Shown: positions 1,658 through 35,508 of the stretch, piece by piece | How positions within the stretch are numbered: the stretch's first letter is position 1 | How the letters are laid out: the number at the start of each line of letters is the position of its first letter | Origin: Actinomycetospora straminea | Lineage (GTDB): Bacteria; Actinomycetota; Actinomycetes; Mycobacteriales; Pseudonocardiaceae | Direction: 5' to 3' | NCBI RefSeq assembly: GCF_028737255.1 | Contig: NZ_JAQZAN010000012.1 | Span: forward strand, 124,001 to 188,000 | DNA: 64,000 nucleotides | The notes under the pieces: model-generated | The model's database searches: none | Seen by the model: only the letters and a program-made list of their open reading frames with translations | Told to the model about the DNA's origin: nothing | Translations under genes and position numbers: made by a program

Positions 1658-3193
1658 ATGACGTCCACCGCGACGACCGAGCGCCGCGCATGGATCGGGC
1701 TCGCCGTCCTGGCGCTGCCGACGCTGCTGCTCTCGCTCGACATGAGCGTGCTCTACCTGGCGCTGCCGGCGCTGGCCGCCGACCTCGGCCTCGGACCGAC
1801 GGCCCAGCTCTGGGCGATGGACGTCTACGGCTTCATGATCGCCGGCTTCCTCGTCACCATGGGCACGCTCGGCGACCGCATCGGGCGCCGCCGGCTGCTG
1901 CTCATCGGCGCGGCGGCGTTCGGGGTGGCGTCGGTGGCCGCGGCGTTCTCGAGCGGGCCGGCGATGCTCATCGCCACCCGCGCGCTGCTCGGCGTCGCCG
2001 GCGCGACGCTCATGCCCTCGACCCTCGGGCTGATCCGCACCATGTTCCCCGACCCGCGCGCCCGCGGGACCGCGATCTCGATCTGGATGAGCTGCTTCAT
2101 GGGCGGCATGACGGTCGGGCCCCTGGTCGGCGGGGTGCTGCTCGAGACGTTCTGGTGGGGCGCGGCCTTCCTCATCGGCGTGCCGGTGATGGTCCTGCTG
2201 CTCGTGCTCGGCCCGGTGCTGCTGCCCGAGTCGCGCGACACCGCCGCCGGCCGGCTCGACCTCGCGAGCGTCGCGCTCTCGCTCGCCGCCGTCCTGTCCG
2301 TCGTGCACGGGCTCAAGTCGCTCGCCGCCGACGGCCCCGGGCCCGGCGCCCTGGTCGCGCTCGCGGTCGGCCTCGGCGTCGGCGCGCTGTTCGTCCGCCG
2401 CCAGCTCCGGCTCGCCGACCCCCTGCTCGACCTGCGCCTGTTCCGCGCCCGTGCCCCGGCCGGCGCGCTCGGCATCAACCTCGGCGGCGGCGTCGTCATG
2501 GCGGGCACGTTCCTGCTGCTCACGCTGTGGCTGCAGCTCGTCGAGGGGCTGTCGGTGCTGACCGTGGGCCTGGTGCTCGCGCCGCTGCAGGCCGCGATGG
2601 TGGTGTCCTCGCTGCTCGCGCCGCGCCTGGCCACCCGCTTCCGCCCGGCCCGGGTGATCGCCGCGGGCCTGCTCGCCGGGGCCGTCGGCCTCGCGGTCGT
2701 GGGGCTGCTCGGCGGCGGGACGGTCGTGCTGCTCGCGGGCTTCCTGCTCGCGTCGGTGGGCATCGCGCTGCCGACGGCGCTCGGCACCGACCTGCTCGTC
2801 GGCTCGGTGCCCGAGGAGAAGGCCGGCTCGGCGGGCGCGCTGTCGGAGACCAGCGGCGAGCTCGGGATCGCGCTCGGCGTCGCGACGCTGGGCAGCCTCG
2901 CGACCGCGGTCTACCGGGACACGCTCGTCGTCCCGGCCGGCACGCCCGCCCCACTCGCCGAGGCCGCCCGGACCGGGATCACGGAGGCGGTCGCCGCGGG
3001 GCCGACCCGCGAGCTCGCCGACGCCGTCGGTGCCGCGTTCACCACCGGGCTCGGCACGGCCGCCGTGGTCGGGGCCGTGGTCTTCGCCGGCCTGGCCGGG
3101 CTCGCGGCGGCGGCCTTCCGGCGGGTGCCGACGACGGCGCCGGCCGCGCCCGTCGAGGAGGAGTGCCCGACCCCCGTGCCGAGCGCGGCCTGA
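1658..3193 (+). CDS. DHA2-family MFS multidrug exporter
   Basis: A 511-residue integral membrane protein with about 14 hydrophobic segments, the size and layout of the DHA2 (EmrB/QacA/LfrA) proton-coupled drug efflux family. The family's motif A region is seen as GTLGDRIGRRRLLLIG after the second helix, and the motif C-like GPLVGG in helix 5. The start is ATG 1658 behind GAGGAGGCCGGAG; the open frame upstream to base 50 has no domain content. It acts in the cytoplasmic membrane; substrate unknown. Twin inverted repeats upstream suggest repression by a small-molecule-responsive regulator. A small membrane gene follows, and a MarR regulator lies beyond it in the opposite direction; either may be functionally linked. 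Confidence 0.85.
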   Translation: MTSTATTERRAWIGLAVLALPTLLLSLDMSVLYLALPALAADLGLGPTAQLWAMDVYGFMIAGFLVTMGTLGDRIGRRRLLLIGAAAFGVASVAAAFSSGPAMLIATRALLGVAGATLMPSTLGLIRTMFPDPRARGTAISIWMSCFMGGMTVGPLVGGVLLETFWWGAAFLIGVPVMVLLLVLGPVLLPESRDTAAGRLDLASVALSLAAVLSVVHGLKSLAADGPGPGALVALAVGLGVGALFVRRQLRLADPLLDLRLFRARAPAGALGINLGGGVVMAGTFLLLTLWLQLVEGLSVLTVGLVLAPLQAAMVVSSLLAPRLATRFRPARVIAAGLLAGAVGLAVVGLLGGGTVVLLAGFLLASVGIALPTALGTDLLVGSVPEEKAGSAGALSETSGELGIALGVATLGSLATAVYRDTLVVPAGTPAPLAEAARTGITEAVAAGPTRELADAVGAAFTTGLGTAAVVGAVVFAGLAGLAAAAFRRVPTTAPAAPVEEECPTPVPSAA

Positions 3194-3231
3194 GCGGGGT
3201 GCGGTCGGGCTCGCCGCGTACCGTGCCCGGC

Positions 3232-3486
3232 ATGCCGGGCTTCTCGTGGCCGCCGCGCGACACCGACCGCAACCGCTTCCTGTGCCGCGTGCAGGTCGTG
3301 GTCTACGCGCTCGTCACCGCGTACTTCGGGTTGTTCGCCCTCGTCAGCGGCGCGCTCGTGCCGTGGGCGATCTTCACCGTCGCCCTCGCCGCCACCCTCG
3401 TGGTCGGCGTGGCGCTGCTGCTCATGCGCGCGCAGCGCCGGGCGACGGCGGACCGCGCCGGGCCACCCGTGCCGCTCGAGCGCTGA
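3232..3486 (+). CDS. Small two-helix membrane protein
   Basis: An 84-residue hypothetical protein. After a polar N-terminus (MPGFSWPPRDTDRNRF) there are two strongly hydrophobic stretches (about residues 20-42 and 47-66), then a basic, polar tail. Such small two-helix proteins are common and unassigned in actinobacteria. The ATG at 3232 sits seven bases after a TACCGT hexamer (3219-3224) and has no clear ribosome site, which fits a leaderless transcript starting at the ATG. The stop codon lies in a 14-bp palindrome shared with the stop of the convergent MarR gene. I do not recognise a named family. Confidence 0.6.
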   Translation: MPGFSWPPRDTDRNRFLCRVQVVVYALVTAYFGLFALVSGALVPWAIFTVALAATLVVGVALLLMRAQRRATADRAGPPVPLER

Positions 3487-3496
3487 GGGCCCTCAG
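3483..3496. terminator. Palindrome covering two convergent stop codons
   Basis: CTGAGGGCCCTCAG is a perfect 14-bp palindrome holding the stop codon of the small membrane gene (plus) and of the MarR gene (minus). With no loop and no T-tract it is a weak terminator candidate at best. Confidence 0.3.
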
Positions 3497-3978
3497 GCCG
3501 TCGGCCCCGTCGCCACCGTCTCCCACCGCCGGGAGAGGGCGTCGAGGTGGCCGAGGAGGTCGGCGAGGCTGGCGTGCTCGGCCATCAGCTCGTCCTCCAG
3601 CGCGGTCACCCGCACCCGCAGGCGACCCAGCGCCGCACGCCCGTCGTCGGTGAGCCCGAGCAGCTTGCGCCGCCCGTCGGCCGGGGCCTGGGTGCGCTCG
3701 ATGAGCCCGCGGTCCTCGAGGCGCCGGCAGACGTCGGCCATGGTCGAGCGGTCGAGCGCGACCGTGTGGGCCAGCGAGCCCTGGTCGAGCTTCGGGTGCG
3801 CCTCGACCGTGACGAGCACGGCGTACTGCGGCCCGGTGAGCACGGGATCGACCCGGCGCGCCCAGGCCGCCGTGTACGCCTGGTGGAGGCGCCGGGCCAG
3901 GTAGCCGGGTGCTTGTCGAATGACGGCCGGGGTGGTGGGGCCACCCTCCGCGTCCGCCGCGTCCCCCTCGCGTGACAT
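3493..3978 (-). CDS. MarR-family transcriptional regulator
   Basis: A 161-residue winged-helix regulator. The core reads YLARRLHQAYTAAWARR (dimerisation helix), then LTGPQYAVLVTVEAHP, DQGSLAHTVALDRSTM as recognition helix region, RLEDRGLIER, and a wing APADGRRKLLGLTDDG: the standard MarR layout. MarR proteins usually repress a nearby gene and release DNA on binding an aromatic or lipophilic ligand. I chose the start at MSREGDAAD (ATG 3978); the frame runs 17 codons further but would cross the probable operator. Directly repeated GTGA(T)ACACAAC sites lie just upstream, between this gene and the divergent gene at 4126. The likely targets are itself, the divergent isomerase-like gene and perhaps the exporter at 1658. 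Confidence 0.85.
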   Translation of the reverse strand: MSREGDAADAEGGPTTPAVIRQAPGYLARRLHQAYTAAWARRVDPVLTGPQYAVLVTVEAHPKLDQGSLAHTVALDRSTMADVCRRLEDRGLIERTQAPADGRRKLLGLTDDGRAALGRLRVRVTALEDELMAEHASLADLLGHLDALSRRWETVATGPTA

Positions 3979-3987
3979 GTGCCTACT

Positions 3988-4012
3988 GTGACACAACTCA
4001 GTGATACACAAC
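3988..4012. promoter_or_regulatory. Direct repeat, probable MarR operator
   Basis: GTGACACAAC at 3988-3997 and GTGATACACAAC at 4001-4012 form a near-direct repeat in an AT-richer patch immediately upstream of the MarR start codon and within the divergent region shared with the gene at 4126. The position suits autoregulation. Inference from placement only. Confidence 0.45.
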
Positions 4013-4125
4013 GCATTACCGCGGGTCACATCGGGACGAACGGTCGTGTGACGCGGTCACCGGGGCGGGCGGTCGGTTTCGCGGGCGGATCCGTGCCCGG
4101 GCGGCGGGGGTGGGAGGGTCGGGGC

Positions 4126-4797
4126 GTGGACGAGATCGCGGAGTGGAGCCGGGCCCAGCAGCGCGTCGTCGCCCTGGTCGCCGACCTGGATCCCGAGCGG
4201 GCGGCGACGACCGTGCCCGCCTGCCCGGACTGGACGGTGCGCGACCTGCTCTCGCACATGGTCGGCCTCGGCGCCGACGTCCTCGCCGGCGACGAGCCCG
4301 ACGACCACAACGAGGAGTGGACCGCCCGCCAGGTCGACGCCCGCCGCAGCCGCGACGTGCGCGCGCTCGTGGCCGAGTGGGAGGTCGTCGCCGGCCCGCT
4401 GCAGGCGTGGATGGCCGAGCACGGCACGCGCCCGCTCGGGGACGTCACGATCCACGAGCAGGACCTGCGCGGGGCGCTGGGGGAGCCCGGCGCCCGCGAC
4501 ACCCCCGCGATCGCCGTGCTGCGCGACCGGTTCGTCGACCGCTTCGCCGCTCGGCTCGACCCCGCGCTGCCGCCGATCGCGCTGGTCGGGGAGCAGTGGT
4601 CGTGGTGCTCGGCGGGGGAGACATCCGGGGCCGCGGTGGAGGTGCGGGCCCCCGACTTCGACCTGGCCCGCGCGCTGGTGACCCGCCGGTCGGCGGCGCA
4701 GCTGCGGTCGTGGACCACGCGCGGGGACGTCGAGCCCTACCTCGACGCGTTCGCGCTGCTCGGGGCGCTGCCGGAGCAGGACCTCACCGACGGGTAG
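4126..4797 (+). CDS. Mycothiol-dependent maleylpyruvate isomerase-like protein
   Basis: A 223-residue protein of the DinB/MDMPI fold. Helix 1 begins IAEWSRAQQRVVALV; the segment VPACPDWTVRDLLSHMVGLG carries the family's first metal-ligand histidine. IHEQDLRGALG in the middle supplies the Glu and paired residues typical of these metal-binding four-helix bundles. The ALxGR/RALVTRRSAAQLR segment near the C-terminus is also characteristic. Family members use mycothiol as a cofactor for isomerisation or detoxification, but most are uncharacterised. The start is GTG 4126; the open frame upstream overlaps the MarR operator. It is convergent with the FHA gene, only five bases apart. A detoxification role under the neighbouring MarR is an inference. 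Confidence 0.7.
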   Translation: MDEIAEWSRAQQRVVALVADLDPERAATTVPACPDWTVRDLLSHMVGLGADVLAGDEPDDHNEEWTARQVDARRSRDVRALVAEWEVVAGPLQAWMAEHGTRPLGDVTIHEQDLRGALGEPGARDTPAIAVLRDRFVDRFAARLDPALPPIALVGEQWSWCSAGETSGAAVEVRAPDFDLARALVTRRSAAQLRSWTTRGDVEPYLDAFALLGALPEQDLTDG

Positions 4798-4802
4798 GGC
4801 TC

Positions 4803-5648
4803 TCAGCGCGCGGGCGGCGCCTGGCTGGGGAAGAGCAGGCGCACGTCGTCGAGGGTGACCAGGCGCAGGTGGATCGCCTGCTCGACGACGGCGATCCGCC
4901 ACCCGCGGGTCTTGTCGTTGAGCCGCACCCCGCGCAGCCAGCGCTGGGCGTGGCGGAAGGCCTCGCTCTGGGTCTTCGGGCTCGGCGCGGGCCGGCCCTC
5001 GGCGCGGTGCCAGTCGGCGATCTGCTCGGCGTCGCCGTGGACGTCGCGCGGGGCGCTGCTGCTCGGGCCGGCCGTCGCCGCGGCGATGAGGGTGGGCCCA
5101 CAGGCGGCGACGAGCACCGACCACCACGTCTCCGCCGTCGGCAGCGAGGTGTCGATGGTGCGCCCGCCGGCGAGGCCGCCGCTGGTGGTGGGCCCGGCGC
5201 CCGCGACGGGCGCGAACCGCAGCAGCGCCAGCGTCAGCTCCTGGCCGTCGGGCAGCCACAGGCCCAGCGAGGAGCGGTCGTCGCGCACGAGCAGGCCGTT
5301 GCCGGCCCGGATGCGGTCCTTGCCGGCGATGCCGGGCACGAACAGCGTCAGCAGCCCACCGTGCCGCTGCCGGTTGATGATCAGGTAGGCGTCGTCGCGG
5401 ACCTCGATCTCGGCCGCGAGGCGGGACACCCGGTCGTCGGGGACGACGACGTGGCGCGGCGCCCCGGCCGCGCGGCTCGGGCCGTGCCCGGAGTCGCCGC
5501 GCCCGATGGTGATGCGCTCGCCCCACGGGACCGACTGCGTCGTCTCCGTGCGGACGTCGAGCACCGCGAGGCCGCCGACGGGCAGCCGCGGCGGGCCCGG
5601 GGCACGCGGCGGGCCGGACCGGGACGGGCGGGCGGCGGGTCGTGTCAC
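4803..5648 (-). CDS. FHA-domain protein, last gene of envelope block
   Basis: A 281-residue protein. An FHA-like phosphothreonine-reading domain is seen at about residues 40-110: ERITIGRGDSGHG, a following R, then VVVPDDRVSRLAAEIEVRDDAYLI. The SRxHAxI core is degenerate (SRLAAEI, no His), so phosphopeptide binding is uncertain. The C-terminal part (about 200-280) has a helical DNA-binding-like look (QSEAFRHAQRWLRGVRLNDKTRGWRI then VVEQAIHLRLVTLDDVRLLF) but I cannot name it. The start is GTG 5648 with GGGAGGTGGC upstream. It lies 31 bases downstream of a DUF3662 gene. In FhaA-type proteins DUF3662 and FHA are in one chain, so the pair may act together in Ser/Thr-kinase signalling at the envelope. 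Confidence 0.6.
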   Translation of the reverse strand: MTRPAARPSRSGPPRAPGPPRLPVGGLAVLDVRTETTQSVPWGERITIGRGDSGHGPSRAAGAPRHVVVPDDRVSRLAAEIEVRDDAYLIINRQRHGGLLTLFVPGIAGKDRIRAGNGLLVRDDRSSLGLWLPDGQELTLALLRFAPVAGAGPTTSGGLAGGRTIDTSLPTAETWWSVLVAACGPTLIAAATAGPSSSAPRDVHGDAEQIADWHRAEGRPAPSPKTQSEAFRHAQRWLRGVRLNDKTRGWRIAVVEQAIHLRLVTLDDVRLLFPSQAPPAR

Positions 5649-7347: not shown

Positions 7348-8895
7348 CTAATTCCCGGAGTCGCCCGCGGACCCTCCTGGTCGACGAGGCCCCTCGAGCG
7401 GCACCAGGACCTCCTGCATCCCAGGGCTGTCGACGGGGCCGCCGCCCATCCGCGCGAGGAAGCCGATGACGCCGGCCGCGCCCCAGTGCCAGGACGGCTC
7501 GCCGCCGAGCGTCCAGGTCTCGGCCCGGCGCGTCGCACCCCAGCGGTGCTCGGGGGTGGCGACGGCGAGCAGCCAGTTGCGGGCGGCGCGGGCGGCGCCG
7601 GCGAACTCCTCCTCGCCGGTGACGCGCCCGAGCGAGTCGAGGAACCACCCCGTGCCCGCCGCGCCGCTGTTGGTGGCCGTGTGCACGAGCGGGCTGCCCT
7701 CGTACTCCGCCCAGGCCCGGCCGACGGGCTCGACGTGCGCGACGTCGACCAGCCAGCGCCCCGCGGCCCGCGCGCGCTCGAGGTGGCGCTCGTCGCCGAG
7801 GATCGCGTGGGCCTGCAGGGAGACCCAGCCGATCCCGGCCGCGCCCTCCTCCATGCCGGTCGCGCGGTTCGGGTTGTCCGGCGTCAGTGCCCGTGACCCG
7901 GCGCCGAGCAGTATCGGCCACGTCAGCCCCCGCCCGGCCGGCTGCGCGGTCCGGTCGAGGAAGCCCAGCGCGGACTCCGCGTCGCGGCGCCAGCGCTCGT
8001 CGCCCGTGGCCTGGTACATGCGCAGGAACACGAACGCCGCGCCCGCGGTGCCCGAGAGGAAGCCGGTGTTGCGGCGCGGTTCGTCGTCGCGCTCGGGCAG
8101 GCCGCCGTCGTCGTCGAGCCGGCTGGAGAGGTAGGCCGCGCCGCCCAGCGCGTGCGCGGTGAGCTCGGGGTCGCCCAGGCGCTCGCCCATCACCGAGAGC
8201 GCGTAGACGATCCCGGCCTGGCCCTCGCCCATGCCGTGCCGGTAGGACGGGACGCCGGGGTCGACCCACGCCCAGCGGCACATCTCGGGGCAGCCACGGC
8301 CGTCGACACCCTCGGCGCGGTCGAGCACCCAGCGCAGCGAGGCGCGGGCGCCCTCGGTGTAGCGGTCCTCGCCGGTGGCCTCGCCGAGGCGCCACAGCAC
8401 CTCGGCGATGCCGGCGGCGCCGTCGTCGAACGAGGTGTAGGCGCGGTCGGCGGGTCCGGCGGCGTTGACGTAGTCCGGCACGCGGCCACCGCGGGAGGCG
8501 CCGAGCAGGAAGTCGCCGGCGGCCCGGGCGCCGGCGAGCCAGCCGTCGCGGGCGGCGGGGTCGGGGGTGGCCGCGGCGAGGGCGAGCATCCCGTGCGCGA
8601 CGCCGGCGGCGCCCACGTCGCGGTCGGTCTGGCGGTTCGGGGCCTGGATGGCGCTGGTCCAGGCACGGGCGCCGGCGAGCTCGCCGGGGACGTCGTCGCC
8701 GAAGGGGTCGGCGACGGCGTCGGCGAGCAGGCGGTCGGCGAACGCCGTCGGGAGGCCGGGCGCCGGCGCCTCGGTGCCGGCCCCGGTCCCGGAGCTGCTC
8801 GACGGGACCCGCTCGGCGGCCGGCGCCGGCGCGCACGCCGCGAGCAGCCCGACCGCCAGCACGAACAGCAGCACCCGCGTCACGGGACCCGTCAC
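7348..8895 (-). CDS. LanC-like alpha-toroid lipoprotein of polysaccharide locus
   Basis: A 515-residue secreted lipoprotein. The N-terminus is a signal peptide with a lipobox (VLLFVLAVGLLAAC). The rest shows seven evenly spaced Gly-rich turns: GAAGVAHG, DDGAAGIAE, EGQAGIVYA, SGTAGAAFV, EEGAAGIGW, SGAAGTGWF and WGAAGVIGF. This is the signature of the LanC-like alpha/alpha toroid. The zinc-binding Cys-Cys-His of true lanthionine cyclases is absent: the place of WCxG is taken by SWHWGAAG and no CHG motif is seen. It is therefore unlikely to be a cyclase; this fold is shared with glycan-active toroid enzymes. The start GTG 8895 overlaps the deacetylase stop by four bases, so it is co-translated with a polysaccharide deacetylase. 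A role in binding, cleaving or epimerising the exported polymer is inferred. Confidence 0.65.
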   Translation of the reverse strand: MTGPVTRVLLFVLAVGLLAACAPAPAAERVPSSSSGTGAGTEAPAPGLPTAFADRLLADAVADPFGDDVPGELAGARAWTSAIQAPNRQTDRDVGAAGVAHGMLALAAATPDPAARDGWLAGARAAGDFLLGASRGGRVPDYVNAAGPADRAYTSFDDGAAGIAEVLWRLGEATGEDRYTEGARASLRWVLDRAEGVDGRGCPEMCRWAWVDPGVPSYRHGMGEGQAGIVYALSVMGERLGDPELTAHALGGAAYLSSRLDDDGGLPERDDEPRRNTGFLSGTAGAAFVFLRMYQATGDERWRRDAESALGFLDRTAQPAGRGLTWPILLGAGSRALTPDNPNRATGMEEGAAGIGWVSLQAHAILGDERHLERARAAGRWLVDVAHVEPVGRAWAEYEGSPLVHTATNSGAAGTGWFLDSLGRVTGEEEFAGAARAARNWLLAVATPEHRWGATRRAETWTLGGEPSWHWGAAGVIGFLARMGGGPVDSPGMQEVLVPLEGPRRPGGSAGDSGN

Positions 8896-9713
8896 GGCAC
8901 GACGGCCGCGAGCGAGCCGCCGTTGAGGGCGGAGGGCACCGGCGAGGGCGCGACGACGCCGAACGTGAAGCCGCGGGCGCGCAGCTCGTCGATCGCGCGC
9001 GGGAGGTACTGCAGCTGGTCCGGCGAGCAGCTGATCGCGTCGTTCGCGTCGTGGAGCAGGAGCATCGCCTGGTCGACGGCCTCCGTCACCACGAAGTCGA
9101 CCATCGCGTCCGGGCCGGGGCACTGGAAGTCGCCCTCCTTGTCCGAGGTCCACTTCCAGTGGACGCCGCCGGTCATGCCGAGCCGCGCCAGCGCCGCGTC
9201 GCCGCCCGGGGACGGCTGCCCGAAGGGGTAGCGGAAGAGCGTCGGGCGCACCCCGGTGAGCTCGGTGAGCAGGTCGTTCGTCCGGGCGATCTCGGACTCG
9301 GCCTCCTCGGCCGACAGGTCCGGGAACCACGCGTGCTGCCAGGCGTGGTTGCCGACGACGTGGCCCTCCGCCTGCACCCGCCGGACGAGGTCCGGGTAGC
9401 GCTCGGCGTTCTCGCCCTGCAGGAAGAAGGTGGCGCGGACGCGCTTGGCCGCGAGCACGTCGAGGACGTACGGCGTCAGCTGCGCCGACGGGCCGTCGTC
9501 GAACGTGAGGGCGACCCGTGGCCCGGGCCGGGCGTCGGGGGCCGGCGGCAGCTGCTGGTCGAGCGCCGTCGGGGTGTACCGGGGCGCCTGGGCGACGTCA
9601 CGGTCCGCGGCGGCCGCGAAGGAGCCCGCGAACGTGAGCACGACGGTGCCCAGGAGGGCCACCAGGAAGAACAGCAGCGAGCGGACGTTGCGGCGCCGGT
9701 CGTCGAACGACAC
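8892..9713 (-). CDS. CE4 polysaccharide deacetylase (NodB homology)
   Basis: A 273-residue membrane-anchored or secreted enzyme. One hydrophobic helix (about 13-36) is followed by a NodB-type catalytic domain. Motif 1 TFDDGP is at 70-75 (the second Asp binds metal), motif 2 HAWQH at 123-127 supplies the metal histidines, motif 3 RYPFG lies near 161, and the motif 5 LLLHD region is near the C-terminus. CE4 enzymes remove N-acetyl groups from GlcNAc polymers or peptidoglycan. The start is GTG 9713, four bases after the stop of the 59-residue membrane protein, and its own stop overlaps the LanC-like gene. Lying after a PgaC/IcaA-like synthase, it is best read as the outer-face partial deacetylase of the same polymer, like PgaB or IcaB. 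Confidence 0.85.
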   Translation of the reverse strand: MSFDDRRRNVRSLLFFLVALLGTVVLTFAGSFAAAADRDVAQAPRYTPTALDQQLPPAPDARPGPRVALTFDDGPSAQLTPYVLDVLAAKRVRATFFLQGENAERYPDLVRRVQAEGHVVGNHAWQHAWFPDLSAEEAESEIARTNDLLTELTGVRPTLFRYPFGQPSPGGDAALARLGMTGGVHWKWTSDKEGDFQCPGPDAMVDFVVTEAVDQAMLLLHDANDAISCSPDQLQYLPRAIDELRARGFTFGVVAPSPVPSALNGGSLAAVVP

Positions 9714-9717
9714 GCGG

Positions 9718-9897
9718 TCAGCGGCGGAGGCGGGCGCCGCGGCGCACGATCCGCACGAGCAGCATCGCCGTGAACAGCACGGTCACCGCCATCAGCACCA
9801 TCGCCATCGCGTTGATCCCCGTGGCCGCCGCGAGGGCGAGACCGGTGCTGCCGCCGCCGACCACGCTGGTGAGGTACATCGAGTGCTCGCCGTACAT
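9718..9897 (-). CDS. 59-residue membrane protein in polysaccharide locus
   Basis: A short gene between the glycosyltransferase and the deacetylase. It begins MYGEHSMYLTSVVGGGSTG and has one or two hydrophobic segments (ALAAATGINAMAMVL then AVTVLFTAMLLVRIV), ending in a basic tail (RRGARLRR). The start is ATG 9897; a second ATG seven codons in is possible. Spacing is 40 bases after the glycosyltransferase stop and 4 bases before the deacetylase start, so it is part of the operon. Small membrane subunits accompany PNAG and cellulose synthases (IcaD, PgaD), and an analogous helper role is likely. I do not recognise the family. Confidence 0.65.
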   Translation of the reverse strand: MYGEHSMYLTSVVGGGSTGLALAAATGINAMAMVLMAVTVLFTAMLLVRIVRRGARLRR

Positions 9898-9937
9898 CCC
9901 TGCGTCCGTCCCCTTCCGATCCGCTCGACTGCTGCCG

Positions 9938-11359
9938 CTACCAGGCCTGGCGCCGCGCGTTGAGGCAGCGCCAGGCCGCCGTCACCGCGCACAGCTCCAG
10001 GAAGAACCCGTAGAAGTCCTCGACGACCAGGACGGCGACCAGCGCGACGTCGCGCGAGCCGCGTCCCGGGAGCCGCCACATGGACGTCATCCGCTCCAGC
10101 CACATCACGCCGAGCGGGATCAGCCCGATCAGCGCGTACCGGAACGGCACCGCGTAGACGATCATCAACGTGAGCATCGCGAGGAACAGCACGCGGAAGA
10201 ACACGCTGAAGGCGAAGAGCACGTAGGACAGGCAGTCGATCCGCGTCGCGGGCGACCACCCGCGCTTGAGGACCTCGTCCATCCCGCCGCGCCCCCAGCG
10301 CAGCCGCTGCTGCCACAGCGAGCGCCAGGTGGTGGGCGGGTCGGTGTAGACGTGGGCGCCGCGCGCCGCCGCGACCCGCCAGCCGCGGGCCTTGAGCTCG
10401 AGGGTCAGCGCGTAGTCCTCGATGAGCGAGGCGCCGTCCCACGGCTCGCCGGCCTCGCGCCCCGCCGCGACCGCGGCCAGCGCCGCCGTCCGGTACATGG
10501 CGGCCGCGCCGCTCGCGACCGAGACGCGCCAGCCGCGCAGGTCGCGCAAGTCGTCGTAGCGGGTGTACTCGAGGCGCTGGAGCCGCCAGATCAGGCCCTT
10601 GCCCTCCGAGGCCCAGTACCGCGCGCACACCGCGCCGAGCACGGCGTTGCCGCGCAGCTCGCTCGCCATCTTAGCGACGGTGTCGGGCAGCAGGACCGTG
10701 TCCGCGTCCATCGTGAGCACGAAGTCGGCGTCCTGGGCCGCCACGCGCCAGCCGTGGTTGAGCGCGCCGGCCTTCTTGTCCGGGTTCCGCTCCATCTCGA
10801 GGACCGTCACCGGGAAGCGGCGCGCGATCTCGGCGGTGCGGTCGGTGCAGTTGTTGGCGACGACGACGATGCCGGAGATCTCCAGCCACTCCGGGACCCG
10901 CTGCTCGAGCAGGCCCTCGACGGTGGCGACGATCCCCTCCTCCTCGTTGTGGGCGGGGACGAGGACCGACACCGTGGTGGTCTCGGTCCGGCTGCGGCGC
11001 TTCGTGGCGGTGCCGCCGGTCGCGCCGGCCTGCCGGGCCTCCTCGTGCGCGAGCATCGCCGCGCGCAGCGTGATCGTCTCCGCTTCCGGGTCCTGCGAGC
11101 GGCGCGCGGCGGGCGGCGGCGGGACCGGACGTGACGCGGCGGGGCGCGCGGCGGCGGGGCGTGCGGCAGGCGGGTGGGGCGTGGCCGGGCGGGGCGCCGC
11201 CGGGTGGGGCGTGGCGGGGTGGGGCGCGGCCGGGTGGGACGTGGCGGGGCGGGGCCGGGCCTGCGGGTGGATGCGGCCGGTCACCGGGTCGGCGGAGGCG
11301 TGGGTGCGCGACGGGGATCCGTCGGCTCGCCTGCTCCGCACCGCCTGGCTGGTCGCCAC
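9938..11359 (-). CDS. Family 2 processive glycosyltransferase (PgaC/NodC-like)
   Basis: A 473-residue membrane glycosyltransferase. Residues about 28-90 are a Pro/Ala/His-rich low-complexity stretch. The GT-A catalytic domain starts near 128 with VSVLVPAHNEEEG. Then come the MDADTV DxD motif (near 215), the IEDYALT catalytic Asp region (near 314) and QQRLRWGRG, the QxxRW motif of processive synthases (near 351). Several C-terminal transmembrane helices follow. Such enzymes build beta-linked GlcNAc or related polymers from UDP-sugars and extrude them. The start is GTG 11359 with GAGGTGA upstream. It heads the operon with a small membrane subunit, a deacetylase and a LanC-like lipoprotein, and follows nagA. 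The polymer is inferred to be an amino-sugar glycan; hyaluronan- or cellulose-like products cannot be excluded. Confidence 0.8.
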   Translation of the reverse strand: MATSQAVRSRRADGSPSRTHASADPVTGRIHPQARPRPATSHPAAPHPATPHPAAPRPATPHPPAARPAAARPAASRPVPPPPAARRSQDPEAETITLRAAMLAHEEARQAGATGGTATKRRSRTETTTVSVLVPAHNEEEGIVATVEGLLEQRVPEWLEISGIVVVANNCTDRTAEIARRFPVTVLEMERNPDKKAGALNHGWRVAAQDADFVLTMDADTVLLPDTVAKMASELRGNAVLGAVCARYWASEGKGLIWRLQRLEYTRYDDLRDLRGWRVSVASGAAAMYRTAALAAVAAGREAGEPWDGASLIEDYALTLELKARGWRVAAARGAHVYTDPPTTWRSLWQQRLRWGRGGMDEVLKRGWSPATRIDCLSYVLFAFSVFFRVLFLAMLTLMIVYAVPFRYALIGLIPLGVMWLERMTSMWRLPGRGSRDVALVAVLVVEDFYGFFLELCAVTAAWRCLNARRQAW

Positions 11360-11482
11360 GTCACCTCACCTGCGTCGTTGGTCCGAGCCCGGAGCGCCGT
11401 CACCCGATCGGTCGGGCACTCGCGAGGCATACCGTACACAGACCGGATTTCGTTACACCATCGTGAGAAATCGGGTATCGAA
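11360..11482 (-). promoter_or_regulatory. AT-rich leader, likely promoter of polysaccharide operon
   Basis: On the minus strand, the 138 bases between the nagA stop and the glycosyltransferase start include a locally AT-rich stretch (about 11425-11480) after the nagA terminator. A TACGGT hexamer there is a candidate -10 element with only a poor -35 (GGTGTA, 17 bases before). The remaining leader up to the start codon is about 70 bases with no clear riboswitch that I can recognise. Confidence 0.4.
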
Positions 11483-11502
11483 AGTGACGCCGGGACGTCA
11501 CT
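11483..11502 (-). terminator. Hairpin terminator after nagA
   Basis: AGTGACG, six-base loop, CGTCACT: a perfect 7-bp stem, followed on the minus strand by TTTC. It overlaps the nagA stop codon at 11498-11500. Some read-through into the glycosyltransferase operon is possible because the T-tract is short. Confidence 0.55.
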
Positions 11503-28697: not shown

Positions 28698-29567
28698 GTG
28701 ACCGTGCCCGCAGACGACGGTCGGGCTCCGCAGCGCGGCGCGCCCGTCACCACGACGGCGGACCGGTTGCCGCACGCGCTCGACGCCGCCGAGGTGTCGG
28801 AGCGCCTGGCCGGGCGTCGCCCCGCGGTCTTCCTCGACTACGACGGGGTGCTCACGCCGATCGTGCCGCGGCCCGAGGACGCGATCATGACCGACGCGAT
28901 GCGCGACGTGCTGCACGCGCTCGCGGGCCGCTGCCCGGTGTGCATCGTCTCCGGCCGCGACCGGGCGGTCGTCGCCGAGCTCTCCGGTGTCGACGACCTC
29001 GTCATCGCCGGCAGCCACGGCTTCGACATCCACGACCCGCAGCGCGGCGTCATCGAGCACGAGGCCTCGCGCGGGTGGGAGGATCTGGTCGCCGAGGTCA
29101 CCGAGCGGGTCCGCACGGCCGCGGCGGAGATCGAGGGCACGCAGGTCGAGCCCAAGCACGCCTCGGTCGCCGTGCACGACCGCCACGTCGCCGACGCCGA
29201 CCGCCCGCGGGTCCAGGAGCTGGTCGACGCCGTCCTCGCCGAGCACCCCGGGCAGCTGCGCGTGACGCCCGGCAAGTTCGTCCACGAGATCCAGCCGAAG
29301 ATCGACTGGAACAAGGGCAAGGCCGTCGAGCACCTCATCGGCGTCCTCGACCTCGACCACCCCGACGTCGTCCCGATCTACCTGGGCGACGACATCACCG
29401 ACGAGGACGCGTTCCGGGCCCTGGCCCGGCGCGGTGATCACCGCGAGCCCGGACTGGGCATCCTCGTGATCGACCCGGCCGACGCGCCGTCGCGCGAGAC
29501 CGCCGCGACGGCCGTGCTCGCGACGGTCGACGAGGTGGCCCGCTTCCTCGACGGCCTCGCCCGGTGA
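28698..29567 (+). CDS. otsB: Trehalose-6-phosphate phosphatase
   Basis: A 289-residue HAD-superfamily phosphatase that releases trehalose from trehalose-6-phosphate in the cytoplasm. HAD motif 1 is FLDYDGVLTPI (near residue 45), motif 2 is IVSGRDR, the cap has the typical SHGFDIHDP, then a Lys in WNKGKAV and motif 4 GDDITDEDAF. All are diagnostic for OtsB. The start GTG 28698 follows GGAGGCCCT. No otsA (synthase) gene is in the window. It is followed 76 bases later by a GH65 phosphorylase. In M. tuberculosis OtsB1 (Rv2006), as I recall it, HAD, OtsB and GH65 domains are fused, which supports a shared pathway. Confidence 0.92.
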   Translation: MTVPADDGRAPQRGAPVTTTADRLPHALDAAEVSERLAGRRPAVFLDYDGVLTPIVPRPEDAIMTDAMRDVLHALAGRCPVCIVSGRDRAVVAELSGVDDLVIAGSHGFDIHDPQRGVIEHEASRGWEDLVAEVTERVRTAAAEIEGTQVEPKHASVAVHDRHVADADRPRVQELVDAVLAEHPGQLRVTPGKFVHEIQPKIDWNKGKAVEHLIGVLDLDHPDVVPIYLGDDITDEDAFRALARRGDHREPGLGILVIDPADAPSRETAATAVLATVDEVARFLDGLAR

Positions 29568-29643
29568 GCCCCGCCCGGGTGAGCCCCCGCCCGCCCCGAG
29601 AGTCCCGACAGCCGCCGCCCGCTCCCGGAGACCGGAGACGTCC

Positions 29644-32343
29644 GTGACCACGACGACGACCGAAGACCAGACCCCCAGCACCACGACCGACGGCCGCACG
29701 ACGCCGTCGACGTCCGACGTCCTGCCCGGCGGCGCCGTCGCCGACGACTTCACCCTCACCTGGACCGGCCTCGAGCCCGACGACGAGGGCCTGCGCGAGG
29801 CGCTGACCAGCACCGGCAACGGCTACTTCTGCACCCGCGGCGCGGCCGAGTGGGAGGACACCGACGCGCCCCGGCACTACGCCGGCACCTACGCCCACGG
29901 CGCGTACAACCGCGAGACGACGATCCTCGGCGGCCGCCCGGTCCTCAACGAGGACCTCGTCAACCTGCCGAACTGGCTCGTCCTCAAGCTGCGCATCGAG
30001 GGCGAGGAGGCCATCCGCCTCGACAACGTCGAGGTGCTGGACTACCGCCACTCCTACGACATCCGCACCGCGACGATCAGCCGCGACTTCCGCTTCCGCG
30101 ACCGCGCCGGGCGCGAGACGACACTGTCCAGCCGGCGCTTCGTCTCGATGGCGCACAGCCACCAGGCGGCGATGGAGTGGACGGTCACCGCCGAGAACTG
30201 GTCGGGCCGCATCGGGATCGTGTCGGCGATCGACGGCCGCGTCGACAACACGATGGTCGCCCGCTACCGCGACCTCGAGGGCCGCCACCTCGACCCCGTC
30301 ACGCCCCGGACGTTCGGGCCGGAGATCATCGCGCTGAAGGTGCGGACCCGGCAGTCGAACCTCTACGTCTCCGAGGCCGCCCGCACGCGGGTGTACCGGG
30401 GCCGGGGCCGCGGCTGGGAGAAGATCGAGCCCGCCCGCACGCTCCACCAGATGAACGACTACGTGCAGCAGGTGCTCGACCTCGACATCACCGAGGGCGA
30501 GACCGTGCGGGTCGAGAAGATCGTCTCGTTCTTCACCAGCCACGACAACGCGATCACCGAGACGCTGACCGCGGCCGGACGCCACGTCGAGCGCTACCCG
30601 GACTTCGCCGGCTGCCTGGCCGAGCACGTCGACGCCTGGGACGAGTACTGGGACGTCTGCGACCTCGAGGTCCCGGCCGAGCCGCGCGTGCAGCTGCTGC
30701 TGCGCTTCCACATGGCCCACGTCCTGCAGGTGTGCTCGCGGCACACCGCCCGCCACGACGCCGGCGTCCCCGCCCGCGGTCTGAACGGCGAGGCCTACCG
30801 CGGGCACGTGTTCTGGGACGAGCTGTACGTCTACCCGTTCCTCAACTACCGGCTCCCCGAGATCACGCGCGGCCTGCTGATGTACCGCTACCGCCGCCTC
30901 GCCGAGGCCCGCGCGGCCGCGGCCGAGGCCGGCTACCGCGGCGCGATGTTCCCGTGGCAGTCGGGCAGCGACGGCACCGAGGAGACGCAGGTCGTCCACC
31001 TCAACCCGCTGTCGGGCCAGTGGGACCCCGACCACTCCCACAACCAGCGCCACGTCAACGCCGCGATCTTCTACAACGTCTGGCAGTACTACCAGGCCAC
31101 CGACGACCTCGAGTTCCTGCGCGACTACGGCGCGGAGCTCATGCTCGAGATCGCCCGCTTCTGGGCCTCGATCGCGCACCGCAACCCCAACACCGGGCGC
31201 TACGAGATCCACGGCGTCATGGGGCCGGACGAGTTCCACGAGCGCTACCCCGGCGCGGACGCCGGCGGGCTGCGCAACAACGCCTACACCAACGTCATGG
31301 TCGCCTGGATCTGCGCGACCGCGCCGAAGGTCCTGGCGCTGCTGCCCAAGAGCCGCCGGCGCGCGCTGCGCAGCCGCCTCGGCATCACCGACGACGAGAT
31401 CGCGCGCTGGTCGGAGATGTGCACGTCGATGGCGGTGCCGACCCACCTCGACGACGACGGCCACGCCGTCATCACCCAGTTCGAGGGCTACGAGGCGCTC
31501 GACGAGCTCGACTGGGAGGGCTACCGGTCGAAGCACAAGAACATCCAGCGGATGGACCGCATCCTCAAGGCCGAGGGTGACGACCCCGACCGCTACAAGC
31601 TCGCCAAGCAGGCCGACGCGGTCATGCTGTTCTTCCTGTTCGGCGACGACGAGCTGCGCGAGATCTTCTCCCGGCTCGGCTACGACGAGATCGCCCACGA
31701 CGGCGACCTCGCGCGGCGCACCATCGCCTACTACGACCGGCGCACCTCGCACGGCTCGACGCTCTCGCTCGTCGCGCACGCCGCGGTGCTGGCCGGCATC
31801 GACCCCGAGAGCTCCTGGGAGCGCTTCCTCGTCGCCGTCGAGTCCGACATCGGCGACGTGCAGGGCGGCACCACCAAGGAGGGCATCCACATGGGGGTCA
31901 TGTCGGGGACCCTCGACCTGCTCCAGCGGGCCTACCTCGGCGCCGGGGCCCGCGACGGCGTGCTGACGTTCTCGCCGCGCCTGACGCTGCGCCTCGACGG
32001 GCTCGCGCTCTCGCTGGTGTTCCAGGGCACGACGCTGCGCGTCTCGGTCGCCGACGGCGCGATGACCGTCGCCGTGCAGTCCGAGGGCTTCAGCCACCCG
32101 GTCCGCATCGGCCTCGGCGACGAGGTCCGCGAGCTCGGCGCCGGCCAGGAGTGGACGGTGCCCCTCGACCGCGACGGCCGGATCGGCCCCGGCGCGACGT
32201 CCGCGTCGGGCTCGACGTCCGCGGCGGGCGGCGACAGCACCGGCGGCACCGGCGGCACCGGCGGCGCCGGCGCGACCGACCACGGCACCGCCTCGATCCC
32301 GACGACCACCGGCGGGCACGACCACGAAGGGAACGGCGCATGA
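29644..32343 (+). CDS. GH65 disaccharide phosphorylase (trehalose/maltose type)
   Basis: An 899-residue glycoside hydrolase family 65 enzyme. The beta-sandwich N-terminal domain starts near residue 35 (FTLTWTGLEPDDEGL). The alpha/alpha barrel includes GLNGEAYRGHVFWDELYVYP and the catalytic acid Glu in GVMGPDEFHERYP. KQADAVMLFFLF and the phosphate-binding RTSHGSTLS and GGTTKEGIHMG segments follow. Phosphorolysis of an alpha-glucoside gives beta-glucose-1-phosphate and glucose; the next genes (beta-phosphoglucomutase and glucokinase) handle both products. Substrate could be trehalose, maltose, kojibiose or nigerose; otsB favours trehalose. The first 30 and last 60 residues are Thr/Ser/Gly-rich tails (TGGTGGTGGAGAT near the end). 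The stop overlaps the mutase gene. Confidence 0.88.
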   Translation: MTTTTTEDQTPSTTTDGRTTPSTSDVLPGGAVADDFTLTWTGLEPDDEGLREALTSTGNGYFCTRGAAEWEDTDAPRHYAGTYAHGAYNRETTILGGRPVLNEDLVNLPNWLVLKLRIEGEEAIRLDNVEVLDYRHSYDIRTATISRDFRFRDRAGRETTLSSRRFVSMAHSHQAAMEWTVTAENWSGRIGIVSAIDGRVDNTMVARYRDLEGRHLDPVTPRTFGPEIIALKVRTRQSNLYVSEAARTRVYRGRGRGWEKIEPARTLHQMNDYVQQVLDLDITEGETVRVEKIVSFFTSHDNAITETLTAAGRHVERYPDFAGCLAEHVDAWDEYWDVCDLEVPAEPRVQLLLRFHMAHVLQVCSRHTARHDAGVPARGLNGEAYRGHVFWDELYVYPFLNYRLPEITRGLLMYRYRRLAEARAAAAEAGYRGAMFPWQSGSDGTEETQVVHLNPLSGQWDPDHSHNQRHVNAAIFYNVWQYYQATDDLEFLRDYGAELMLEIARFWASIAHRNPNTGRYEIHGVMGPDEFHERYPGADAGGLRNNAYTNVMVAWICATAPKVLALLPKSRRRALRSRLGITDDEIARWSEMCTSMAVPTHLDDDGHAVITQFEGYEALDELDWEGYRSKHKNIQRMDRILKAEGDDPDRYKLAKQADAVMLFFLFGDDELREIFSRLGYDEIAHDGDLARRTIAYYDRRTSHGSTLSLVAHAAVLAGIDPESSWERFLVAVESDIGDVQGGTTKEGIHMGVMSGTLDLLQRAYLGAGARDGVLTFSPRLTLRLDGLALSLVFQGTTLRVSVADGAMTVAVQSEGFSHPVRIGLGDEVRELGAGQEWTVPLDRDGRIGPGATSASGSTSAAGGDSTGGTGGTGGAGATDHGTASIPTTTGGHDHEGNGA

Positions 32344-33089
32344 GCGGGTACAGCGGAGCGATCTTCGACGTGGACGGGGTCCTCGTCGACTCGCCGCACG
32401 AGGAGGCCTGGCGCGAGTCCCTGCGCGAGCTCATGGAGGGCCCGTGGTCGGACATCGTCGCGCAGACGAGCTACGCACCGGAGAAGTTCACGCCGGCGCT
32501 CTACCACGAGCGGATGTCGGGCAAGCCGCGCAAGGCCGGCGCCACCGCGGCGCTCGAGTACTTCGGCGTCCCCGACATCGACCGGCGCGTGCAGGAGTAC
32601 GGCGAGTACAAGCAGGAGATGATCATCCGGCTGATCTCGGAGGGTCGCTTCTCGGCCTACGACGACGCCGTGCGCTTCGTCGTCGAGGTCAAGCAGTCCG
32701 GCATCCCCATCGCCGCCGCCTCGTCGTCGAAGAACGCGAAGCTCTTCCTCGAGCGCGTCGACCTGACGCGGTTCGGGGCGGAGGGCAACCTCCACGGCTA
32801 CTTCGACGTGGACGTCTCCGGCCGTGACTTCGCGCAGGGCAAGCCCAACCCGGAGATCTTCCTGACCGCGGCCGCCGAGCTCGGTGTCGACCCGGCGAAC
32901 GCGTTCGTCGCGGAGGACGCGGTCAACGGCATCCAGGCGGCGAAGGCCGGCGGCTTCGGCGCGCTCGGGGTGTCCCGCGCCGACGACGTCGACGCGCTCG
33001 CCGCCGAGGGCGCGGACGTGGTCGTCACCGACATGGGCGAGATCGACCTGTCCGCTCTGGCCCGGGGCGAGCTGGTGAAGAAGTCATGA
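32340..33089 (+). CDS. Beta-phosphoglucomutase (HAD)
   Basis: A 249-residue HAD enzyme. Motif 1 is AIFDVDGVLVDSPHEEAW with two Asp, the cap contains RMSGKPRKAG, motif 2 is AAASSSKNAK, motif 3 Lys is in GKPNPEIF and motif 4 is AEDAVNGIQAAKAGG. The paired Asp-x-Asp and SSSKN segment fit the beta-phosphoglucomutase subgroup, which turns beta-glucose-1-phosphate into glucose-6-phosphate. It is therefore the natural partner of the GH65 phosphorylase. ATG 32340 overlaps the GH65 stop (ATGA) and its stop overlaps the glucokinase start in the same manner. Confidence 0.88.
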   Translation: MSGYSGAIFDVDGVLVDSPHEEAWRESLRELMEGPWSDIVAQTSYAPEKFTPALYHERMSGKPRKAGATAALEYFGVPDIDRRVQEYGEYKQEMIIRLISEGRFSAYDDAVRFVVEVKQSGIPIAAASSSKNAKLFLERVDLTRFGAEGNLHGYFDVDVSGRDFAQGKPNPEIFLTAAAELGVDPANAFVAEDAVNGIQAAKAGGFGALGVSRADDVDALAAEGADVVVTDMGEIDLSALARGELVKKS

Positions 33090-34063
33090 GCGAGCTGACC
33101 GTCGGCGTCGACGTCGGCGGCACCAAGATCGCGGCGGGCGTCGTCGACGACAGTGGCAAGCTCCTCGCGTCGACCCGCCGGGAGACCCCGGCGACCGACA
33201 CCCACATGGTGCTCGAGGCCATCGCCGACGCTGTCCGCGAGCTGCGCGCCGGCCACGACGTCACCGCCGTCGGCATCGGAGCGGCCGGGTTCGTCGACGC
33301 CGCCCGGGCCAAGGTCATGTTCGCGCCGAACCTCGCGTGGCGCGACGAGGACCTGCGCGGCCAGCTGTCGGCGGCCCTCGAGCTGCCCGTGGTGGTCGAG
33401 AACGACGCGAACGCCGTCGCGTGGGCGGAGTCCCGCTTCGGCGCGGGCCGCGACCACGACGACCTCGTCGCGATCACGATCGGCACGGGGGTCGGCGGCG
33501 GCATCGTCACCAACGGGCGGCTGCTGCGCGGCGGGTTCGGGGTGGCCGCCGAGATCGGCCACATCACGATGGTCCCGTACGGCCGCCGGTGCGGCTGCGG
33601 GTTGCAGGGCTGCTGGGAGCAGTACGGCTCGGGCCGCGCGCTGCTCACCGAGGCCCTCGAGATCGCGCGGCACTCGCCGGCGTTCGCCGCGGGCCTCATC
33701 GCGGCGGCCGGCGGCGACCCCGAGGCGATCACCGGCGAGATGGTCACCGCGACCGCCCAGCAGGGCGACGTGGGCGCGCTGCACTGCTTCGACGAGATCG
33801 GCCGCTGGATCGGCCTCGGTCTCGCCCAGCTCGCGGCGGTGCTCGACCCCACCCTCTTCGTCATCGGCGGCGGCGTGTCCGCGGCGGGCGAGGTGCTGCG
33901 GGGACGGGTCGAGGAGGTCTTCCGGGCCAACCTCACGGGGCGCGGCCACCGGCCCGTCGCCGAGGTGCGGCTCGCGGAGATGGGGTGGGAATCCGGCATG
34001 GTCGGCGCCGCCGACCTCGCCCGGACCAATTTCGACAGTGCCGTACCGGGGAGTGACCGATGA
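33086..34063 (+). CDS. glk: ROK-family glucokinase
   Basis: A 325-residue sugar kinase. Phosphate-1 motif GVDVGGTKIAAGVVD, the catalytic VVVENDANAVAWAE, ITIGTGVGGGIV, GVAAEIGHIT with the ROK His, and the zinc motif CGCGLQGCWEQY are all present, and there is no helix-turn-helix domain. This distinguishes it from the ROK regulator at 27311. It phosphorylates the free glucose released by the phosphorylase, or imported sugar, using ATP or polyphosphate. ATG 33086 overlaps the mutase stop, and the stop overlaps the transporter start by four bases. Confidence 0.9.
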   Translation: MSELTVGVDVGGTKIAAGVVDDSGKLLASTRRETPATDTHMVLEAIADAVRELRAGHDVTAVGIGAAGFVDAARAKVMFAPNLAWRDEDLRGQLSAALELPVVVENDANAVAWAESRFGAGRDHDDLVAITIGTGVGGGIVTNGRLLRGGFGVAAEIGHITMVPYGRRCGCGLQGCWEQYGSGRALLTEALEIARHSPAFAAGLIAAAGGDPEAITGEMVTATAQQGDVGALHCFDEIGRWIGLGLAQLAAVLDPTLFVIGGGVSAAGEVLRGRVEEVFRANLTGRGHRPVAEVRLAEMGWESGMVGAADLARTNFDSAVPGSDR

Positions 34064-35508
34064 CCAGTCCAGGATCGGGGTCGGGCGCGCCCGGCTCACG
34101 GGAGAAGACGACCGCCAAGGCGATCCTCATCTCCATCGTCGCCGCCGTGGGCGGCTTCCTCTTCGGCTTCGACTCGAGCGTCATCAACGGCGCGGTCGAC
34201 GCCATCAACTCGCAGTTCGGGCTGGAGAGCAGCCCCTTCCTGTCCGGGTTCGCGGTGGCGGTGGCGCTGCTCGGCTCGGCGGTCGGCGCGTGGTTCGCCG
34301 GCCCGACGGCCGACCGCTACGGCCGCGTCCGCGTCATGCTCATCGCCGCCGCCGCGTTCGCGATCAGCTCGATCCTGTCCGGCCTCGCGTTCGCCGTGTG
34401 GGACCTCATCCTGTGGCGCTTCATCGCCGGCATCGGCATCGGCATCGCCTCGGTGATCGCGCCGGCCTACATCGCCGAGATCGCGCCCGCGCACATCCGC
34501 GGCCGCCTGGCCTCGCTGCAGCAGATGGCCATCGTGCTCGGCATCTTCGTCGCGCTGCTCTCGGACGCGCTGCTCGCCAACGCCGCCGGCTCGGCGGCGA
34601 ACGTGCTGTTCCTCGGCGCCGAGGCCTGGCGCTGGATGTTCATCGTCGGCGTCATCCCGGCGGTCATCTACGCGATCCTCGCCCTGCGGATCCCCGAGTC
34701 GCCGCGCTACCTCGTGGCCAAGGGCCGCAACGACGAAGCGGCCGTGGTGCTGGCGAACGTGCTGGGGTCGTCGACCGACGCCGTCCAGCACAAGATCGGT
34801 GAGATCGCGGACAGCCTGCGCCGCGAGGACAAGCCCAGCCTGCGGGACCTCACCGCGCCCGGCACCGGCCTGCGCCCGATCGTCTGGATCGGCATCCTGC
34901 TGTCGGTCTTCCAGCAGTTCGTCGGCATCAACGTGATCTTCTACTACTCGACGACGCTGTGGCAGGCCGTCGGGTTCTCCGAGAGCGACTCGTTCTTCGC
35001 GTCGGTCATCAACTCGCTGGTCAACGTGGTCTCGACGATCGTCGCGATCCTCATCGTCGACCGCGTCGGCCGGAAGCCGATGCTGCTCGGCGGCTCGGCC
35101 GGCATGGTGGTGACGCTCGCCGTCATGGCGGTCGCGTTCTCGCAGGCGGTGGAGACGGTCGGTGCCGACGGCGAGCTCTCGCCCAGCCTGCCGGGCGTCT
35201 GGGGCCCGGTCGCCCTGGTCGCCGCCAACCTCTACGTGGTCTCCTTCGCGGTCACGTGGGGCCCGGTCGTCTGGGTGCTGCTCGGCGAGATCTTCCCGAA
35301 CTGGCTGCGGGCCGCCGCGCTCGCCGTCGCCGCCGCCGCGCAGTGGATGGCGAACTTCGTGGTCACGGTGACGTTCCAGGCGCTCGCCGACCTCAGCCTG
35401 GCGTTCGCCTACGGCATCTACGCCGCCATGGCCCTGCTCTCCTTCTTCTTCGTCGCGCGGTACGTGCAGGAGACGAAGGGCAAGGAGCTCGAGGAGATGG
35501 TCGGCTGA
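34060..35508 (+). CDS. Sugar porter (MFS, GlcP/XylE type)
   Basis: A 482-residue transporter with 12 hydrophobic helices. Sugar-porter marks are clear: GGFLFGFDSSVINGA in helix 1, GPTADRYGRVRVML, RFIAGIGIGIASVIAPAYIAE, the PESPRYLV loop end, QQFVGINVIFYYST in helix 7, VDRVGRKPML, and the final QETKGKELEEM. It imports a sugar with protons across the inner membrane. As the last gene of the otsB operon (ATG 34060 overlapping the kinase stop) it is likely to take up the disaccharide or glucose that the operon metabolises. A 13+7-bp hairpin follows. Confidence 0.88.
   Translation: MTSPGSGSGAPGSREKTTAKAILISIVAAVGGFLFGFDSSVINGAVDAINSQFGLESSPFLSGFAVAVALLGSAVGAWFAGPTADRYGRVRVMLIAAAAFAISSILSGLAFAVWDLILWRFIAGIGIGIASVIAPAYIAEIAPAHIRGRLASLQQMAIVLGIFVALLSDALLANAAGSAANVLFLGAEAWRWMFIVGVIPAVIYAILALRIPESPRYLVAKGRNDEAAVVLANVLGSSTDAVQHKIGEIADSLRREDKPSLRDLTAPGTGLRPIVWIGILLSVFQQFVGINVIFYYSTTLWQAVGFSESDSFFASVINSLVNVVSTIVAILIVDRVGRKPMLLGGSAGMVVTLAVMAVAFSQAVETVGADGELSPSLPGVWGPVALVAANLYVVSFAVTWGPVVWVLLGEIFPNWLRAAALAVAAAAQWMANFVVTVTFQALADLSLAFAYGIYAAMALLSFFFVARYVQETKGKELEEMVG

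Follow-up and report, generated by a model that had tools for sequence, protein, structure and literature searches.

Within a 64,000-nucleotide stretch of the soil actinobacterium Actinomycetospora straminea (NZ_JAQZAN010000012.1, positions 124,001-188,000), here called the window and used for all coordinates below, four genes on the minus strand encode a processive GT2 glycosyltransferase, a small membrane protein (microprotein), a CE4 polysaccharide deacetylase and a lipoprotein with a predicted LanC fold (Table 1). These genes almost certainly constitute a functional, co-inherited unit. On balance, we lean towards the reading that this unit is a synthase-dependent exopolysaccharide cassette whose lipoprotein acts on the polymer as a glycan-active toroid. 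New here are a LanC-fold lipoprotein without zinc cysteines in the slot of a glycan enzyme, and a more widespread association of GT2s and membrane microproteins. Searches of an open-licence library yielded no published description of a set of GT2, microprotein, CE4 and LanC-fold lipoprotein.

Table 1 Genes of the cassette with their window positions and the evidence used to describe them.
Feature	Position	Strand	Evidence
GT2 glycosyltransferase, processive type (QxxRW), predicted polymer synthase	9938..11359	-	Pfam, NCBIfam, motifs re-read in 13 loci
59-amino acid microprotein with a single transmembrane segment, predicted GT2 partner	9718..9897	-	Open reading frame, alignment, adjacency
CE4 polysaccharide deacetylase with N-terminal hydrophobic segment	8892..9713	-	Pfam, NCBIfam, motifs, tree
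LanC-fold lipoprotein, lipobox LLAAC	7348..8883 (start 8883; less likely 8895)	-	Pfam, alignment, fold

Co-inheritance of the four genes

All four genes lie where the initial annotation had placed them. It had given gaps of 40, 4 and −4 bases; the first two stand (GT2 to microprotein and microprotein to CE4, respectively), whereas the third is probably +8. The GTG at 8895, which overlaps the CE4 stop codon, is absent in some relatives, and aligned relatives carry a start codon at the GTG at 8883, which is therefore the probable start of the lipoprotein.

Co-conservation was analysed in 61 genomes, comprising the window's own, 17 further members of Actinomycetospora and 43 others. The microprotein was found in 12 of these genomes, and the same 12 contain a GT2 with 74-100% identity (the next best match reached 36%) and an adjacent CE4 with 50-100% identity. 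The lipoprotein was detected in 13 of the 18 genus members, the 13th (G007) having only a fragment of it at a contig end, while nine of the 43 other genomes yielded short partial matches only. Apart from that fragment, the lipoprotein was never seen without the other three genes. None of the four genes was found in G004, G009, G013, G014 and G015, among which G004 (83%) and G013 (59%) are incomplete. A lack of co-conservation in relatives had been set in advance as grounds for refuting the unit, but the four genes are syntenic in 13 loci, window included. Two clades can be distinguished in Actinomycetospora: one of eight loci, among them the window, with cvpA and fhaB-like genes in the vicinity, and one of four (L033-L036) located elsewhere. 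The stretch around cvpA/fhaB holds no cassette in the genomes of L033-L036 or in G009, G014 and G015; no cvpA was detected in G004. A metagenome-assembled genome (MAG) of Pseudonocardia (L049, the same record as L072) carries the four-gene set in another setting, on a contig that breaks off in the final portion of the lipoprotein gene.

The ratio of nonsynonymous to synonymous substitution rates (dN/dS) between the window and L026 was 0.28 for the GT2, 0.00 for the microprotein, 0.17 for the CE4 and 0.20 for the lipoprotein. In six comparisons within clade 1 it ranged from 0.00 to 0.39 for the microprotein and from 0.15 to 0.24 for the lipoprotein; in comparisons with L049 and two loci of clade 2, the respective ranges were 0.53-0.63 and 0.51-0.58. 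A profile scan for the lipoprotein in 394 genomes of the class, with at most three candidates scored per genome, revealed eight genomes with a match at E ≤ 1e-6, and only the window's own protein matched over its full length. In the genome collection, a scan seeded by a pattern recovered 13 loci, namely 11 in Actinomycetospora, one in the Pseudonocardia MAG and one short stretch with 40% identity in Burkholderiales; with such seeding, remote kin of the lipoprotein may be missed. A broad distribution of the lipoprotein was thus not found in either scan. The family PF05147 itself occurs in 127 of the 394 class genomes and in one of 14 control genomes, exported and cytoplasmic proteins taken together.

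Predicted products and a parallel arrangement

The GT2 matches Glycos_transf_2 with 94.4 bits (Pfam cut-off 23.3) and contains the motifs QQRLRW, MDADT and EDY, with QxxRW located by script in 12 of the 13 loci and the remaining locus (L032) mis-anchored by the script. Its N-terminal ~120 amino acids are rich in Pro and Ala, and hydrophobic segments are found at the C-terminus. The designation 'PgaC-like' is justified as a relationship, since the PgaC/IcaA model TIGR03937 is the best-scoring NCBIfam model (102.2 bits, E 3e-29), but not as a membership, given the equivalog cut-off of 422.3. In L049, the GT2 frame (3123-4817) has a Rossmann-like N-terminal stretch resembling uridine diphosphate-glucose dehydrogenase (E 0.0036, under the cut-off) at the position that is Pro/Ala-rich in the Actinomycetospora GT2s, which may hint at a uronic-acid donor.

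The CE4 assignment is based on PF01522 (Polysacc_deac_1; 126.4 bits, cut-off 23.1) and on the metal and catalytic motifs TFDDG, HAWQH, RYPFG and LLLHD. Over the 13 loci, TFDDG and HxxxH are each present in 13, RxP[FY]G in 12 (not in L049) and a literal LLLHD in two. The microprotein begins with MYGEHSMYLTS, of which MYGE is conserved, and has no match over the cut-off in Pfam or NCBIfam. It contains no Lys or Arg ahead of its transmembrane segment and six behind it; this charge distribution suggests an N-out/C-in topology. All 11 window-type rows are free of Cys.

The lipoprotein matches LANC_like (PF05147) with 60.9 bits (cut-off 23.2). Structure prediction, which had been proposed together with the locus, returned the LanC toroid fold, and enzymes make up most of its closest solved structures. 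The seven GxxG-type inner motifs noted initially are legible by eye. Three Cys residues are invariant, C19 of the lipobox (in 12 of 12 rows, that is, the window and 11 relatives) and C200 and C204 of a CPxxC motif, and all seven inner motifs are devoid of Cys. LanC lanthionine cyclases bind zinc through two Cys and a His in their inner motifs, a Cys-Cys-His site that the lipoprotein hence does not have. Its inner motifs display many invariant acidic residues (DDG, GEG, EEG).

A parallel arrangement of GT2, MY (MYN) microprotein, CE4 and a GH16 protein was found in three loci (L060, L061 and L069; two from Actinomycetospora and one from another genus of the family). It spans 4171-7125 in L061, where the GH16 protein has a lipobox-like N-terminus; the microprotein frame is disturbed in L069. 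The GT2s of the LanC and GH16 types form separate clades (supports 100/99 and 100/96), whereas the CE4s of both arrangements group together against 18 other CE4s (94/91). Similar cores thus seem to carry different outer enzymes, and the LanC-fold lipoprotein, predicted to lie outside the membrane, holds the slot that a GH16 enzyme holds elsewhere.

The established scheme for such polymers comprises a synthase, a deacetylase and a hydrolase, and the cassette conforms to it with the LanC-fold lipoprotein as its presumed outer enzyme. Systems of the pga/ica type have a small membrane partner. The cassette resembles the poly-N-acetylglucosamine (PNAG) systems pgaABCD, icaADBC and Streptomyces MatAB (PMC5972031, PMC7112194) in combining a PgaC/IcaA-related GT2 with a CE4. 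It differs in that the GT2 scores far below the PgaC/IcaA cut-off, in the lack of a family match for the microprotein and in having a LanC-fold lipoprotein in place of IcaC or of the hydrolase domain that Gram-negative PgaB adds; PgaB is described as uniting deacetylase and hydrolase (PMC7112194). In Gram-positive Pel loci, deacetylase and hydrolase are described as separate genes (PMC7112168), and the cassette likewise has a deacetylase and a further protein in separate genes tied to one presumed polymer system, although this third protein is of LanC fold and not a PelA hydrolase. The main texts of PMC7112168 and PMC7112194 do not contain the word LanC. In Streptomyces MatB, a CE4 is reported to be fused to the GT2 (PMC5972031). 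A frame of ~1300 amino acids with both CE4 and GT2, an arrangement like that of MatB, lies in the window's own genome (L120, G000:C7:134000-141000), and a GT2 match within a frame of 1294-1450 amino acids was found in 16 of the 18 genus genomes, so that a separate PNAG-type system probably coexists with the cassette.

Judged from the encoded families, the cassette quite probably synthesises and deacetylates a polymer, which is in line with the polysaccharide reading first given to this locus. The GT2 would polymerise a beta-linked sugar, most likely an N-acetylated hexosamine, and pass the chain through its own membrane helices, as expected from its family, while the microprotein, being strictly adjacent, may reside beside it in the membrane and help assembly or export. 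The CE4, presumably held at the membrane and intact in its motifs, would strip some N-acetyl groups from the emerging chain. On the outer face of the membrane, the lipoprotein might then act on the same chain by cutting, epimerising or lyase-type trimming, a role as expected of GH16 in the parallel arrangement and of the hydrolase in PgaB and Pel systems. The sugar, the chemistry and the contact of the lipoprotein with the polymer are what we infer in this scheme. Considering its slot, its fold and its mostly weak matches to glycan-active toroids, it appears somewhat more likely than not that the lipoprotein acts on that glycan. If so, the LanC fold would gain an extracellular function on sugars instead of peptides, and Gram-positive exopolysaccharide synthesis a new set of parts.

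Related GT2-microprotein pairs and alternative readings

Small membrane proteins behind related GT2s, which the initial annotation did not mention, occur in many other Actinomycetes. Profile searches at E ≤ 1e-50 revealed related GT2s in 38 of 296 class genomes and 24 of 249 family genomes. We read the region downstream of the GT2 in 61 loci (the listed places outside the genus and eight chosen from the GT2 search of the 61 genomes); in 57 of these the GT2 exceeds 370 bits, and one (L072) is of the window's kind. Directly behind the GT2, 46 of the 57 loci have an ATG-started open reading frame of 40-110 amino acids with a strong hydrophobic stretch, starting with Met-Tyr in 34, compared with five such frames and no Met-Tyr start at 249 other gene ends in the same loci. 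The 57 loci are not independent, since several come from one genus, and some without a microprotein are false negatives owing to another start codon, masked bases or the hydrophobicity threshold. The motif L[AP]xTG, characteristic of class A and class E sortases (PMC5148588), is present in 28 of the 34 Met-Tyr microproteins (LAxTG in 26), and a sortase gene follows downstream in four of the related loci, including one from the window's own genome (L059, G000:C2:1-9000). There, positions 233-2409 cover a paralogous GT2, then a 52-amino acid microprotein (MYG...LAYTG) and a sortase with 96 bits to PF04203; this microprotein might be anchored by the sortase and serve as partner of a polymer synthase.

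The window-type microproteins contain neither LAxTG nor L[AP]xTG ahead of the transmembrane segment (0 of 11) and have LAAATG, LAATTG, LAATQG or LAASQG instead. Small proteins of the related loci share size, MY start, single transmembrane segment and basic tail with the class E sortase substrates described in PMC5148588 and with the NCBIfam model NF058583 ('LAXTG motif-containing small protein'). Of six such proteins, three match it at E < 0.001 with scores below the model's cut-off, whereas the window microprotein has no match at E ≤ 1. An hhalign comparison of the window-type with the LAxTG microproteins gave a probability of 86.5 over 33 columns, mostly of the transmembrane segment, so kinship is likely but uncertain. 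Behind the GT2s of ten loci from other families of the class (L064, L090-L093, L095-L097, L101 and L104) lies a different kind of small membrane protein, 65-89 amino acids long; it starts four bases inside the GT2 end in eight of ten cases and mostly has an ETRSIHP-like tail.

Several observations weigh against a glycan-active lipoprotein in an exopolysaccharide cassette. Among the genomes searched, the cassette was encountered only in Actinomycetospora and the Pseudonocardia MAG. The GT2 score below the PgaC/IcaA cut-off makes the assignment of the sugar tentative. A position of the window GT2 inside the core microprotein-GT2 family is unsupported: it scored 238 bits against a profile of that family built without its kind, compared with 196-220 for four GT2s of the outgroup. 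In a tree omitting 13 rows as near-copies or long branches (including L113, one of the four sortase loci), the clade of the window GT2 joins two of those outgroup GT2s (96/87) and not the core family, to which the GH16-type GT2s belong. Given this distance between the GT2s of the LanC and GH16 types, the slot shared by the two arrangements may be convergent or due to chance, and the grouping of the CE4s is short of full support with only 18 other CE4s sampled. Matches of the lipoprotein to glycan-active toroid families are mostly weak, and where their cut-offs were checked, for the proteins of the window and of L049, a single match exceeds its cut-off, namely Pec_lyase in L049 (24.9 against 22). 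A shared (alpha/alpha) fold proves no function, nor do fold and slot alone prove a chemistry.

The lipoprotein could instead be a non-catalytic scaffold whose acidic inner ring holds the deacetylated polymer at the membrane or wall surface, or which brings GT2 and CE4 together. The lipid-anchor Cys kept in all 12 rows and the invariant acids, which would suit a cationic glucosamine polymer, are consistent with this; given that the equivalent slot is occupied by a GH16 enzyme and that the closest structural neighbours are mostly enzymes, we consider a scaffold unlikely. CE4s and toroids also serve on peptidoglycan, and the envelope location would fit a lipoprotein whose substrate is peptidoglycan or some other glycan of the envelope and that is no more than co-regulated with the polymer genes. 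Such a loose association is improbable, as the cassette remains together in both of its locations within the genus and also in a second genus, and in the 61 genomes searched the lipoprotein was not seen without its partners, the contig-end fragment excepted. The LanC fold, the PF05147 match over the cut-off and the small peptide encoded nearby might also recall a lanthipeptide system in which the 59-amino acid peptide is cyclised or otherwise modified. LanC works inside the cell, whereas the lipoprotein is predicted outside the membrane, and it differs from NisC (2g02), LanCL1, LanCL2 and CuvL in being a predicted exported lipoprotein without Cys at the inner motifs. Its neighbouring peptide is Cys-free and hence not a Cys-containing precursor, and no dehydratase was seen by eye in the lists of open reading frames, in which no model search for one was made. 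On account of the missing Cys residues, this reading, or that of any other ribosomally synthesised and post-translationally modified peptide, was rejected as scarcely conceivable.

Little probability can be given to the idea that the microprotein is an acceptor whose exposed N-terminal peptide receives the glycan, either during its assembly or by transfer. Strict adjacency to the GT2s, the conserved MYGE, Tyr, Ser and Thr in the N-terminal segment, and the sorting motifs and sortases of the related loci would agree with it; the window-type proteins, however, lack the sorting motif, the N-out topology is suggested by charges only, and we know of no processive GT2 that uses a membrane peptide as acceptor. 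It may also be speculated, as a rather improbable extension, that an Actinomycetes GT2 clan works via membrane microproteins carrying the nascent glycan: the MY peptide would receive or guide the chain, the sortase would cut LAxTG and join it to the wall, and in Actinomycetospora the LanC-fold lipoprotein would instead hold or release the deacetylated chain, a new activity for this fold. The combination of GT2s with membrane proteins of ~50 amino acids, many with a wall-sorting motif, makes the attachment of polymers to the wall of actinomycetes a testable question.

Surroundings of the cassette

The gene nagA, named initially as the neighbour of the cassette, does adjoin it in the window, 138 bases from the GT2. 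It was rejected as a cassette member because it was detected next to only six of the 13 loci. In the gap between nagA and the GT2 (11360-11500), an inverted repeat, GTGACGtcccggCGTCAC, was seen by eye at the nagA stop codon. Rfam gave no match at the gathering threshold, a promoter scan found nothing, and a terminator scan detected a single site on the opposite strand. Farther along the window (28698-35508), genes were noted by eye that resemble those for a trehalose phosphatase, a large GH65-like phosphorylase, a beta-phosphoglucomutase, a ROK kinase and a sugar transporter; they lie between what are presumably pgsA/patA-like and pimA-like genes, the names in this run and its flanks being our assumption.
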